DNA of 64,000 nucleotides from an uncultured Eubacteriales bacterium (lineage in GTDB: Bacteria; Bacillota; Clostridia; Monoglobales; Monoglobaceae): contig CAOKIL010000002.1 of NCBI GenBank assembly GCA_948468535.1, positions 1-64,000 on the forward strand, in the 5' to 3' direction. The first letter of the stretch is position 1. Each line of letters opens with the position of its first letter. The notes beneath the pieces were generated by a model, which saw nothing but the letters and a program-made list of their open reading frames with translations, was not told where the DNA came from and searched no databases. Both the position numbers and the translations under genes were made by a program. Shown here piece by piece: positions 40,020 to 60,258 of this stretch.

Positions 40020-40083
40020 TTTAACTGTAGCAATTGGAGTAGCGGCGGTTGTTTCCGACACCTACCGAAATGGGGTGTTTTAT

Positions 40084-40146
40084 ATGGAGTATGTTATATC
40101 TTTTGCACTTGTTGTAATGATAATAATTGCTTACATAGAGAAATAG
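40084..40146 (+). CDS. 20-residue hydrophobic peptide, candidate type I (holin-like) toxin
   Basis: The frame opens at ATG 40084 and encodes MEYVISFALVV followed by MIIIAYIEK: one membrane segment and a charged tail, like small Fst/TxpA/holin-like toxins though shorter than most. A consensus promoter gives an mRNA starting near 40026. The weak ribosome site GGGGTG is inside a hairpin (ACACC at 40058-40062 with GGTGT at about 40074-40078), a common way to hold toxin translation low. A convergent structured RNA overlaps its 3' end. Toxicity is inferred only; the ORF is too short to score by homology. Confidence 0.5.
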   Translation: MEYVISFALVVMIIIAYIEK

Positions 40147-40269
40147 CCGCCTATCTCCGGGAAAGATAAACGGCTTTAACTTTTTTATAGCACTTAGCTT
40201 TTGCGGAAACAACTAAAGCTATTTCACGCTGTGCCACTCGTTTTATAGAATGAGTGGCTTTTTATTTCT
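40140..40269 (-). ncRNA. Candidate antitoxin RNA, copy A
   Basis: On the minus strand TTGACA (40304-40299), 17 nt, TAATAT (40281-40276) predicts a start near 40269. The RNA has a 5' hairpin GCCACTC/GAGTGGC, then ACAGCG, AAATAGC and GTTGTTTCCGC, and ends in terminator AGCCG...CGGCT followed by ATTTCT. The terminator region overlaps the end of the 20-residue peptide gene, so the two RNAs are convergent. A second copy at 47733-47855 shares these blocks in the same order with compensating changes in both stems. Confidence 0.65.
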
Positions 40270-40323
40270 ATAATTATATTATCATACATGCAAGATTATG
40301 TCAAGAAAAACATATACACAATA

Positions 40324-46483: not shown

Positions 46484-46792
46484 CTATTTTTTACACTTGG
46501 CTTTTAAAGACTGAAACTTTTCATAATAAATAATTTCAAAAAGTGCAGAAAGAACTCTGCCCTTTGTAATAAGCGTATAATCCGACTTCTCATTATCGCT
46601 ATGATTAACTTCCATTGCGTTATGTAATAACACTTTATTATCATCTAAAAATTGATATTTTAAAATATAATCTGTTTTATTAATTTGTATAGTTGAGATG
46701 TAGGATAAATCAGACGGATTGTATTGTGCGTCTTTAGTCAGTTCTTTTTTAATACTTTGGCAGTTTTTAAATTTAAATTTTCTTGTAATCAT
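46484..46792 (-). CDS. Hypothetical protein, 102 residues
   Basis: Not recognised. Small, basic and lysine-rich (MITRKFKFKNCQSIKKEL ... FQSLKAKCKK), no membrane segment or signal peptide. AAAGGAAG precedes the ATG. It is followed by a strong terminator and preceded by the small-RNA pair s1/N1. The other s/N pair (55.6-56.0 kb) also precedes a small hypothetical gene on the same strand. Confidence 0.6.
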   Translation of the reverse strand: MITRKFKFKNCQSIKKELTKDAQYNPSDLSYISTIQINKTDYILKYQFLDDNKVLLHNAMEVNHSDNEKSDYTLITKGRVLSALFEIIYYEKFQSLKAKCKK

Positions 46793-46834
46793 AAGGTTCT
46801 TCCTTTCTGTTTTAAAATATTTTATTACAGCTGC

Positions 46835-46947
46835 TTGAAAAACCTTTGCATAAGTGGTATAATAATTTTGCGTGGTTTTTTAAGAAGCTGCGATATTCCG
46901 GAAGCAGTATTAATCTTTTGACGAGATTACTGCTTCCTATTTTTTGT
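46835..46947 (+). ncRNA. Candidate small RNA s1 with promoter
   Basis: TTGAAA (46835-46840), 17 nt, TATAAT (46858-46863) predicts a start near 46870. The roughly 78-nt RNA ends in a long hairpin (GGAAGCAGTA 46899-46908 with TACTGCTTCC 46927-46936, inner AATCT/AGATT) and a TATTTTTTGTTTT tail. s2 at 55633-55752 has the same promoter-hairpin-tail plan, and the sequence after the hairpin (TATTTTTTGTTTT, GTTAA, CCCC) matches. Confidence 0.6.
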
Positions 46948-46993
46948 TTTGAGGTTAAACACTGACATCCCCCCTTTTAAAATAACCCCAATA

Positions 46994-47194
46994 TTAAAAA
47001 AGTGCGTTAACAAAGTAACGCACTAAAAAACACATTACTCTAATAGTTGTCACACTAATTATTTCAATCCTAATAAACTAAGAATATCAAAAAATAGAGT
47101 AAGCGTTTTTATCGTATTAAAATAAAACGTTTATAAGGATTAAAATTAAATAATGTGACAAAGCAAGTATATCACACCTTTTTAAGTTTGTAAA
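46994..47194 (-). ncRNA. Structured RNA element N1 with promoter and terminator
   Basis: Minus-strand promoter TTTACA (47194-47189), 17 nt, TATACT (47171-47166). The RNA (about 47159 to 46994) is closed by TTGTCACA (47047-47054) with TGTGACAA (47154-47161). An inner stem pairs AATCCTAATAAAC (47066-47078) with GTTTATAAGGATT (47129-47141). A terminator (GTGCGTTA/TAACGCAC, 47002-47023) has a T-run on the minus strand. Compared with N2 and N3 both stems differ in sequence but keep pairing. No reading frame of note. Confidence 0.7.
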
Positions 47195-47204
47195 CACCAA
47201 ATTT

Positions 47205-47474
47205 TATTTCAAGACCCATTTCTTTCCTACTTGCGGAAAGAAACGGTTCTTGGACTCCAAAGAAAGGCGCTTTGGCTCGCTGAGGTCGCTATCGCTCCAA
47301 GGGCGTGCCCCTAATCGGTTTTTGGCTAACGCCAAAAACAAGGACAGCTTCACAGCCTTAATATTTTTGCACTGCCGTGAATCTTTCAGCAAAGGCATTG
47401 ACGATATTGCCGCCGCGGCTTGGCATGGCGGAATATGGGTTCGGCAATGGTTTCAAAGTCAACGCCTTGATGAA
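47205..47474 (-). repeat. Dispersed repeat R, copy R1
   Basis: About 270 bp, more GC-rich than its surroundings, homologous in reverse orientation to R2 (56000-56250). Shared blocks in order (minus strand here): TTCATCAAGGC, ATTCCGCC, CCGCGGCGGCAAT, ATTCACGG, AGTGCAA, CTTTCTTTGGAG and a terminal hairpin (TTTCTTTCC/GGAAAGAAA). R1 also has the hairpin GTTTTTGGC/GCCAAAAAC (47318-47339). An open frame of 64 codons crosses it but is not supported as a gene. Confidence 0.75.
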
Positions 47475-47486
47475 TTACCCAAAAAC

Positions 47487-47684
47487 TAAAAAATGCGCCA
47501 GCAAAGCTGACGCACAAAAACGCAGCTTTGATTAAATGTTGCGACACATCTCATAAACTTTAAACAGAAAAAAAGAATATGACAAACCAAAGCCTACGTT
47601 TTTTACATTCGTAAACTATTTTTCTGTTTAAATATTAAAGAAATGTCGCAGATATAATATAACATACTTTATTTAGTTTGTAAA
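47487..47684 (-). ncRNA. Structured RNA element N2 with promoter and terminator
   Basis: Promoter TTTACA (47684-47679), 17 nt, TATATT (47661-47656). The RNA (about 47650 to 47487) is closed by TGCGACA (47540-47546) with TGTCGCA (47644-47650). The inner stem is a perfect 14-bp match, TTTAAACAGAAAAA (47559-47572) with TTTTTCTGTTTAAA (47619-47632). The terminator at 47494-47514 (TGCGCCAGC/GCTGACGCA) pairs fully, with a U-G, only as minus-strand RNA. The core around CCTACGTTTTTTAC is shared with N3. Confidence 0.75.
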
Positions 47685-47697
47685 GAAAAATTTTTTC

Positions 47698-47855
47698 TTG
47701 ACATACATCCACGTATGTGGTATTATAATTATAGAAAACCACCCATTCAATTGAACAGGTGGTTACAGCGCAAAATAGCATTAGCTGTTTCCGCAGCGCT
47801 ATTAAATAATCATATCTAACCGTCGCTCGGCTAAGCGGCGGTTATTTCTTTGTTT
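47698..47855 (+). ncRNA. Candidate antitoxin RNA, copy B (orphan), with promoter
   Basis: Promoter TTGACA (47698-47703), 17 nt, TATTAT (47721-47726), start near 47733. The RNA shares with copy A: a TATAGAAA start, hairpin ACCACC/GGTGGT (A has GCCACTC/GAGTGGC), CATTC, ACAGCG, AAATAGC, TGTTTCCGCA and a terminator AACCG...CGGTT followed by ATTTCT. No membrane-peptide gene is left opposite it; its terminator overlaps the end of a truncated RelE-like frame. Its promoter is back-to-back with that of N2. Confidence 0.65.
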
Positions 47856-55315: not shown

Positions 55316-55600
55316 TTATTTAATCAAATCTTTTGCAAGCATTAATCCGCAGCGGATTCCTGTTTCCATACATACTCTTTCGTATACATCTGAAAATTCA
55401 AAAATACTGTTCATTATATTTGTAACATCTTTATCATCTTTAAAATATTTTCGCAGTATGTTATTCATTTTCAATGTTGCATCTTCTATCTCTTTATTAT
55501 ATAATCCGTTAGGTTCATCTATTTCTTCTTTACCGTTCAACAAGAACTCTCCGATTTTCCGCAAATTCGCTCTCCTTAATATATCTGATAAATCATCCAT
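55316..55600 (-). CDS. Hypothetical protein, 94 residues
   Basis: Start ATG 55600 with AGGAGG 7 nt upstream; an upstream in-frame TTG lacks a ribosome site. Not clearly recognised. It is helical and charged, ending VCMETGIRCGLMLAKDLIK. That end resembles small hypothetical proteins that end in a 'GFRLG...LM'-type helix, but I do not assign a family. It follows the s2/N3 element pair, as the 102-residue gene at 46.5 kb follows s1/N1. Confidence 0.65.
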   Translation of the reverse strand: MDDLSDILRRANLRKIGEFLLNGKEEIDEPNGLYNKEIEDATLKMNNILRKYFKDDKDVTNIMNSIFEFSDVYERVCMETGIRCGLMLAKDLIK

Positions 55601-55632
55601 ACTGATTCCTCCTGTTTTTATTATTTTAATGT

Positions 55633-55752
55633 TTGACAAGAGGAACCTTCCATAGTATAATTAGATTTACGGACAGAGTTCGCTCTTGTCTGGTTTTTGT
55701 TATAGAACGTTGTTAACATTGGTCGTGTGGCAGCGTTCTATTTTTTGTTTTT
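55633..55752 (+). ncRNA. Candidate small RNA s2 with promoter
   Basis: Exact consensus TTGACA-17-TATAAT (55633-55638 and 55656-55661), start near 55668. A first hairpin around a TTCG loop (GACAGAG...CTCTTGTC) is followed by a terminator, ATAGAACG (55702-55709) with CGTTCTAT (55734-55741), and a TTTTTTGTTTTT tail. The terminator tail and the bases after it match s1. The RNA lies on the strand opposite the leader of the 94-residue gene. Confidence 0.65.
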
Positions 55753-55795
55753 GAAGTTAAGCATAAATATTCCCCTCCTTAAAAACCTCAATAAC

Positions 55796-55990
55796 TAAAA
55801 AATGCGCCAGCAAAGCTGACGCACAAAAACGCAGCCTTGATTTAATGTTGCAACACATCTCATAACTTTATTCCATGAAAAAGTATGACAAATCAAAGCC
55901 TACGTTTTTTACAAATCGTAAACTTTTACATGAAATAAATATTAAGATATGTTGCAAATATAATATAACACACTTTTATATTTTTGTAAA
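55796..55990 (-). ncRNA. Structured RNA element N3 with promoter and terminator
   Basis: Promoter TTTACA (55990-55985), 17 nt, TATATT (55967-55962). The RNA (about 55956 to 55796) is closed by TGCAACA (55849-55855) with TGTTGCA (55950-55956), where N2 has GCGACA/TGTCGC. The inner stem pairs TTTATTCCATG (55867-55877) with CATGAAATAAA (55929-55939); the single mismatch becomes a G-U pair only in minus-strand RNA. The core and the terminator (55803-55823) are nearly identical to N2. Confidence 0.75.
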
Positions 55991-55999
55991 GAAAATTTT

Positions 56000-56250
56000 T
56001 TCATCAAGGCTTTACCTTTAAATCAAACGCCGTCCCCTGATTCCGCCTTGCCTACCGCGGCGGCAATGTTGCAAAGCCTTTATGAAAAATTCACGGTAGT
56101 GCAATGATATTTAGGCATAAAAAGCGGTTTGCTTTTTCGAGTTGCTATAGCAACCGAAAAGTAGAGCGATGCACAAACTAAGCGTTTTTCTTTGGAGGTT
56201 CGGAACCATTTCTTTTTCCGAATCGAAAAAAGAAACGGTTCTGAAAATAA
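56000..56250 (+). repeat. Dispersed repeat R, copy R2
   Basis: The counterpart of R1 (47205-47474) in opposite orientation, beginning TTCATCAAGGC immediately beyond the N3 promoter. The terminal hairpin here is TTTCTTTTTC/GAAAAAAGAAA, different in sequence from R1 but still paired. Two short inner hairpins (AAAGC/GCTTT and GTTGC/GCAAC) replace the single hairpin of R1. Confidence 0.75.
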
Positions 56251-56551
56251 AAATTCATTTTGAGATTAAATATATAAAAATATGGGTATTATAAATAAAA
56301 ATAACAGAACTATAAATTTAATTTTTAATATATAAAATAATATATTATTTATTATAGTTGAAGATGCTGTTGTTGGTATGGTGGAAAATGTAAATAACTC
56401 AATTTTTAACCTGAATGTAACATATTTGTATGATGTTTGTAATCGGTGTGTAATGTTTAATAAATATTAACAATTCACACCGATTATTTTGTGACTTAAT
56501 TTTATTAACATTTAATTAACATTTTATAAATGTTATAAATGTGTGTAAGTT
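56251..56551. other. AT-rich intergenic stretch with one long hairpin
   Basis: Very AT-rich, no supported gene. AATCGGTGTG (56441-56450) and CACACCGATT (56476-56485) form a hairpin whose loop contains a further inverted repeat (GTTTAATA/TATTAAC). It lies downstream of the YkvI-like gene and could act as its terminator, though a clean T-run is missing. Confidence 0.5.
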
Positions 56552-60097: not shown

Positions 60098-60239
60098 GAG
60101 ATAATATTTGTAAAAATATCTTAAATATTCCGCAGACAGCAGGTGGATTGTTCCGTAAATCCTGCCGAGGAAGATATAAATTTCAGAATATATATTATTG
60201 TGATATTATGTCCCTCGTATGTTTGCGAGGGATTTTTTT
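60098..60239 (+). promoter_or_regulatory. L10 leader with attenuator
   Basis: The region 60131-60175 (CCGCAGACAGCAGGTG ... AATCCTGCCGAGGA) matches the known ribosomal protein L10 leader, bound by L10(L12)4. It is followed by a terminator TCCCTCG/CGAGGGA (60211-60232) with a T-run (to 60239), as expected for attenuation. Confidence 0.85.
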
Positions 60240-60258
60240 ACGGAAGGAGGATATAAAA

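Follow-up and report, generated by a model that had tools for sequence, protein, structure and literature searches.

The window, by which we mean the whole 64,000-nucleotide stretch of DNA analyzed here, comes from the genome of a Monoglobus relative and carries three copies of a predicted RNA element, N1, N2, and N3. N2 lies on the minus strand between a divergent promoter and a block of dispersed repeats, behind which follow N1 and a small open reading frame (ORF). The features, with the evidence for each assignment where one applies, are as follows.

47488..47653, minus strand: N2 RNA with its terminator (covariance-model match)
47656..47684, minus strand: N2 promoter TTTACA-17-TATATT with an extended -10 (TG) (sequence; consensus over 197 copies)
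47635..47650, minus strand: N2 outer stem, 5' arm, partner of 47540-47556 (fold; covariation, helix 1)
47540..47556, minus strand: N2 outer stem, 3' arm (fold and covariation)
47619..47632, minus strand: N2 inner stem, 14 bp and perfect, 5' arm UUUAAACAGAAAAA (fold)
47559..47572, minus strand: N2 inner stem, 14 bp and perfect, 3' arm UUUUUCUGUUUAAA (fold)
47595..47613, minus strand: N2 apical hairpin UACG...AAAAAACGUA (covariation, helix 3 in both alignments)
47585..47594, minus strand: N2 core strand of the predicted pseudoknot, GGCUUUGGUU (duplex pairing and covariation)
47524..47533, minus strand: N2 putative switch strand, AAUCAAAGCU as partner of the core; as CAAAGCUG it pairs with the terminator 5' arm (duplex-energy tests)
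47502..47509, minus strand: N2 predicted antiterminator partner CAGCUUUG, in the terminator 5' arm and loop (duplex-energy tests)
47488..47515, minus strand: N2 intrinsic terminator with one U-G pair, then a U run (sequence and fold)
47698..47726, plus strand: divergent promoter of "antitoxin-like copy B", outside N (sequence)
47195..47482, no strand assigned: dispersed repeats between N2 and N1, found at 39 places in the genome (repeat search)
47000..47194, minus strand: N1, promoter at 47194-47166, downstream tandem partner with its own predicted pseudoknot and antiterminator of different sequence
46484..46792, minus strand: 102-aa ORF behind the N2-N1 tandem, no Pfam match
55797..55990, minus strand: N3, related copy with promoter, upstream of ORF 55316-55639

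Strand and surroundings of N2

A preliminary description of this DNA had proposed an inner stem of 14 bp without mismatch, a promoter pointing the same way, and a G-U pair in the terminator of the minus-strand RNA. All three were found: 47632-47619 pairs with 47572-47559 throughout, TTTACA-17-TATATT lies on the minus strand at 47684-47656 with TG preceding its -10 box, and the terminator hairpin (47515-47493, 10 pairs, a T run after it) has arms TGCGCCAGC/GCTGACGCA whose C-A mismatch on the plus strand becomes U-G in minus-strand RNA. Because UA (37), UG (36), and CG (35) all occur at this position in the family alignment, the U-G is a real covarying pair. Fold stability was dropped as evidence for the strand: the N2 RNA has a minimum free energy of -50.8 and a z-score of -5.3 against dinucleotide shuffles, and the plus strand folds well too (z = -6.7). 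It is the promoter, the U tract, and the G-U pair that fix the strand. These signals agree on a predicted minus-strand RNA of about 160-165 nt, close to the ~165 nt put forward earlier. The promoters of N2 and copy B stand back-to-back as described, with 13 bp between their -35 boxes. Copy B itself (47698-47850) is related to a type I toxin-antitoxin-like locus at 40040-40310, which holds a 20-aa membrane-like ORF (MEYVISFALVVMIIIAYIEK) and an opposing promoter; copy B has no such 20-aa ORF. Elsewhere in the window, 60112-60247 holds a ribosomal protein L10 leader (Rfam RF00557).

Behind the N2 terminator there is no gene but 288 nt of dispersed repeat, and then N1. Of the 325 nt that separate N2 from N1, about 288 nt are this repeat, which leaves about 40 nt, and tandem N pairs elsewhere are mostly spaced by 45 to 71 nt. 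Because the gap without repeats comes near the usual spacing, the best interpretation of N2 is as the first half of an N2-N1 tandem that repeats have divided, in front of the 102-aa ORF at 46484-46792. Dispersed repeats, such as those at 47195-47482 and 56000-56260, often lie directly behind N terminators.

N1, N3, and several further copies in the window's genome are followed by a module of an s-RNA and a leader (46800-46985 behind N1, 55640-55775 behind N3, and L003, L005/L008, L009, L012, and L013). Between N and the ORF this module holds a hairpin, GAGGTT..AAGGGGG..ATG..AACCTC, around the ribosome-binding site, and further a short ORF M(L/I)NLKTKN.., a second hairpin, and an opposite-strand TTGACA..TATAAT promoter. 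N2 has no such module, in agreement with the earlier remark that no s-RNA faces it, and a pattern matched the module in six copies, all in the window's genome, and in no relative; it is not part of N. The remark that N can stand alone thus holds for its independence from the s-RNA, and fails for N2 as a solitary element, which is the upstream member of a tandem. The s-RNA promoters that face N1 and N3 had made a type I toxin-antitoxin pair conceivable, with N as antitoxin or partner of the s-RNA. However, not only the six-copy distribution of the module but also N2 and nearly all copies elsewhere, which occur without any s-RNA, speak against such a pairing, and the s-RNA ends in its own terminator-like hairpin before it reaches N. 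This explanation is mostly refuted by the occurrence of N without the s-RNA, and we give it hardly any credence.

An RNA family of Clostridia

In a sequence search of the window's genome, no fewer than 14 relatives of N2 were full-length, and many others were partial. A first covariance model (R1), built from 11 copies, found 36 copies in this genome, and 6 to 19 in most genomes of the same genus. Each genus of the family that was sampled had matches, with no match in 13 genomes from other families of the same order. A second model (R2) found 37 copies in the window's genome, 3 to 24 in the other N-rich genomes that were scored in full, and one in a congeneric genome that consists of a single contig (G008, probably a cultured Monoglobus strain), where it precedes an M23 peptidase gene. 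With R2, N was detected in 97 of 391 sampled Clostridia genomes from 20 families, copy numbers in such large scans being lower bounds (seven candidates scored per genome), and in a 398-genome sample of the phylum at E 1e-5 the sole match was the window's genome, with none outside Clostridia. A DNA pattern search likewise gave matches in Monoglobus and other Clostridia records. The element first noticed as three copies in the window is thus no local peculiarity but an RNA found across the class, with 37 copies in the genome, and it is usually placed as the 5' leader of a gene.

In the consensus, N begins with an outer stem of ~12 bp. Then come an asymmetric internal loop, which carries UUAAUA on its 5' side, and an inner stem whose sequence varies, followed by the small apical hairpin and by a conserved core that reads GGCUUUGRUUUGUCAUAC or GCUCUGUUUUCGCAUAC; a linker joins the core to the terminator. 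In 115 aligned matches (two rows of which were reverse-strand matches and were left out of later tests), each of the 28 pairs varies on both sides and 96.1% of the cells are paired; none of 500 shuffles reached this level, and a slid control came nowhere near it. A second alignment of 88 matches from other genomes has 95.3% paired cells, the pseudoknot helix included. Because both alignments are fits to the model, their absolute figures are biased towards the structure; the slid controls and the duplex-energy tests described below are free of this bias. The core appears structured and keeps conserved unpaired positions, as expected of a riboswitch. Additionally, an extended -10 element, T.TG.TATAAT, is conserved upstream of N in 197 copies, which indicates that the promoter belongs to the N unit.

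High copy number, tandems, and adjoining dispersed repeats are also what a non-autonomous mobile element of the MITE or attC type would display, with the folds serving transposition or recombination. Such an origin would not account for compensatory changes at every pair of the inner and outer stems, nor for a conserved promoter and U tract that give one strand a role, nor for a position tied to gene starts, and phage, plasmid, and viral collections gave no match to the queries used, which cover close relatives only. We therefore regard a mobile element as very improbable. In two copies of the window's genome (L006 and L030), another repeated sequence breaks into the terminator region or takes its place.

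Among the 4,227 families of Rfam 15, none scored above its gathering threshold over N in the window, 20 relatives, or 20 distant loci, and N as a known RNA family was rejected at relaxed thresholds as well; weak microRNA matches below gathering scores were judged to be chance matches to a long hairpin. One distant copy (L163:1794-1976) adjoins a Gut-1 RNA (RF01706). No description of N was found in the published papers searched, although subscription journals and supplements could hold one, and no Ruminococcaceae, AbrB, or surface-protein motif appears in the searched text of surveys for novel bacterial RNAs that cover 26 and 50 genomes. Links of BspA-like proteins to riboswitches were likewise not found among these papers, and Monoglobus and riboswitch occurred together there only in an unrelated diet study. 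Altogether, an RNA with very strong covariation, which about a quarter of the sampled Clostridia genomes carry and which reaches 37 copies in a single genome, has no Rfam match.

Alternative pairings of the linker and the genes behind N

The linker just upstream of the terminator contains a strand, referred to here as the switch strand, that is complementary both to the core and to the 5' arm and loop of the terminator. In N2, the linker AAUCAAAGCUGCG complements the core strand GGCUUUGGUU as well as the terminator segment CAGCUUUG. Because a single strand complements both partners, it could take part in the pseudoknot or in the antiterminator but never in both. We compared the duplex energy of each copy's own strands with that of strands swapped between copies in 112 copies. 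Both pairings stood out, linker with core at z = -11.4 and linker with terminator 5' arm at z = -13.7, whereas the control pairing of core with terminator was not significant. When swaps were confined to single genomes, the values were -6.9 and -9.0, respectively, and a replication on 84 copies, nearly all from other families, gave -8.6 and -11.6, again with a nonsignificant control. These tests use related sequences, and the control argues against shared ancestry only partly. Meanwhile, N1, N2, and N3 each make both pairings with differing sequences, the antiterminator of N1 being UAGAGUAAUG with CGUUACUUUG, and in N2 the two hairpins are of similar strength (terminator -15.1, antiterminator -13.6). 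These observations indicate that a mutually exclusive antiterminator pairing has been kept by coevolution, as in an attenuator. The A-rich strand of the core can also extend its pairing into the GCGUUUUU of the linker; this longer helix of 14 pairs (91.9% of cells) shows modest covariation and competes with the apical hairpin.

The position of N relative to genes was assessed in the 194 copies with enough downstream sequence. A Shine-Dalgarno sequence and an ORF start within 40 nt past the terminator were found in 43% of them, compared with 3% at 995 positions drawn at random from the same loci, which places the terminator between the promoter and the downstream start codon, the arrangement of an attenuator. 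An ORF begins within 130 nt in 107 copies and at 131 to 300 nt in another 23, a second N follows in 28, and neither is present in 36; in total, 158 of the 194 copies are followed by a second N or by an ORF no more than 300 nt away. When 110 ORFs behind N were clustered, 34 encoded secreted proteins, several with BspA-type LRR_5 repeats. A further 11 encoded AbrB-like proteins, one half of which resembles a zinc finger, 9 encoded small "DYKKLYHKM" proteins, and 9 encoded small cysteine-rich proteins; the others include proteins with a bacterial PH domain or a copper amine oxidase N-terminal domain and M23 peptidases.

The 36 copies without a gene or a second N within 300 nt, together with the fact that N2 has no gene of its own, count against attenuation. 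Copies without a gene retain both helices as well as the remaining copies do, and because of this the short RNA may matter by itself. Taken further, N would be a family of trans-acting small RNAs, in which the ~165-nt RNA is the product, the terminator is constitutive, and the downstream genes are incidental; the conserved promoter and the strong terminator of each copy would suit this as well. Yet a constitutive terminator needs no antiterminator, and the linker coevolves with the terminator arm in both sets of copies; moreover, a start codon with its Shine-Dalgarno sequence follows the terminator within 40 nt in 43% of the copies. We consider a purely trans-acting role unlikely.

Proposed mechanism and comparison with known systems

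According to the above-described analysis, N is probably a transcription attenuator that acts in cis, is gated by a pseudoknot, and carries its own promoter, a reading to which we assign a probability of roughly three in four, and we file it as a putative new class of such attenuators. RNA polymerase would start at the embedded promoter, and the first ~135 nt would fold into the outer stem, the inner stem, and the conserved core. The next strand, directly before the terminator, would then have two possible partners. In the presumed OFF state it would pair with the core as a pseudoknot, allowing the terminator to form and releasing the ~165-nt RNA. In the ON state the pseudoknot would fail and the same strand would pair with the 5' arm and loop of the terminator, so that the downstream gene could be transcribed. 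What the sequence shows directly is the strand, promoter, terminator, and fold of N, its covariation, the coevolution of the two alternative helices, and the placement before genes. We infer that the two helices compete in this manner during transcription in the cell, and that the balance is set by a signal that stabilizes or destabilizes the core, most likely a small molecule and possibly a protein. N2 would act as the upstream gate of the tandem N2-N1 before the 102-aa ORF, its read-through passing into N1.

As a special case of this attenuation, the signal might be sensed through a protein rather than as a small molecule, for example by an RNA-binding antiterminator or by one of the AbrB/zinc-ribbon proteins encoded behind N. 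The pseudoknotted core could serve as a protein site, and the 11 AbrB-like proteins with a zinc ribbon among the 110 downstream ORFs point in this direction; however, a conserved single-stranded core with a pseudoknot is also typical of aptamers, and no protein-coding gene turned up alongside every copy, which leaves protein sensing rather unlikely. A broader proposal is that N forms a new class of riboswitch with a built-in promoter, answering one common signal and governing, throughout gut Clostridia, a large regulon that comprises surface proteins, AbrB-like regulators, and small proteins, with tandems such as N2-N1 as two-step gates. We advance this only tentatively. A conserved promoter is unusual for a riboswitch. 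The genes downstream of N are diverse, and therefore no ligand can be named; N is a riboswitch candidate only. Should N prove to be a regulatory switch, it would govern adhesin-like surface proteins as well as regulators in many uncultured gut bacteria, where identifying the signal would give access to a regulatory circuit.

The closest parallels in mechanism are the ZTP/pfl riboswitch (PMC10085676) and the fluoride/crcB riboswitch (PMC11077080), in both of which a pseudoknot decides the fate of the terminator by strand exchange. Like them, N would use an aptamer-like pseudoknot to choose between alternative hairpins around an intrinsic terminator. It differs from them in having no sequence or Rfam match, in its greater length, in a switch strand that lies outside the terminator and would form a separate antiterminator, and in its conserved promoter and up to 37 copies per genome. 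With 6S RNA (RF00013), N shares a similar length, a long interrupted hairpin, and its own promoter and terminator, but it has no RF00013 match and adds the predicted pseudoknot and antiterminator. N2 was rejected as 6S RNA, the sole RF00013 match of the genome being a clear one elsewhere (C8:3255-3447). Type III toxin-antitoxin RNAs (ToxI-like) resemble N as pseudoknotted RNAs with a terminator and an ORF in the same direction; in contrast to these, N lacks internal direct repeats, the ORFs behind it are surface and diverse small proteins, and no endoribonuclease family was found among the scanned ORFs downstream of N.

The c-di-GMP riboswitches (RF01051) occur in many copies per genome in some bacteria, and they control surface genes in Clostridia, as N would. 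Their fold is unlike that of N, there is no match between them, and both RNAs are present in the same genomes. As a common ligand of N, c-di-GMP is disfavored: three N-rich genomes (G011, G014, and G019, with 19, 17, and 10 copies, respectively) have no GGDEF match, their assemblies being incomplete.

Two or three N in tandem precede one gene at several loci (L069, L071, L073, L101, L122, L202, L208, and L244), and such tandem copies might act as multi-step gates. Tandem copies often mix the core types CUUUG and CUCU.
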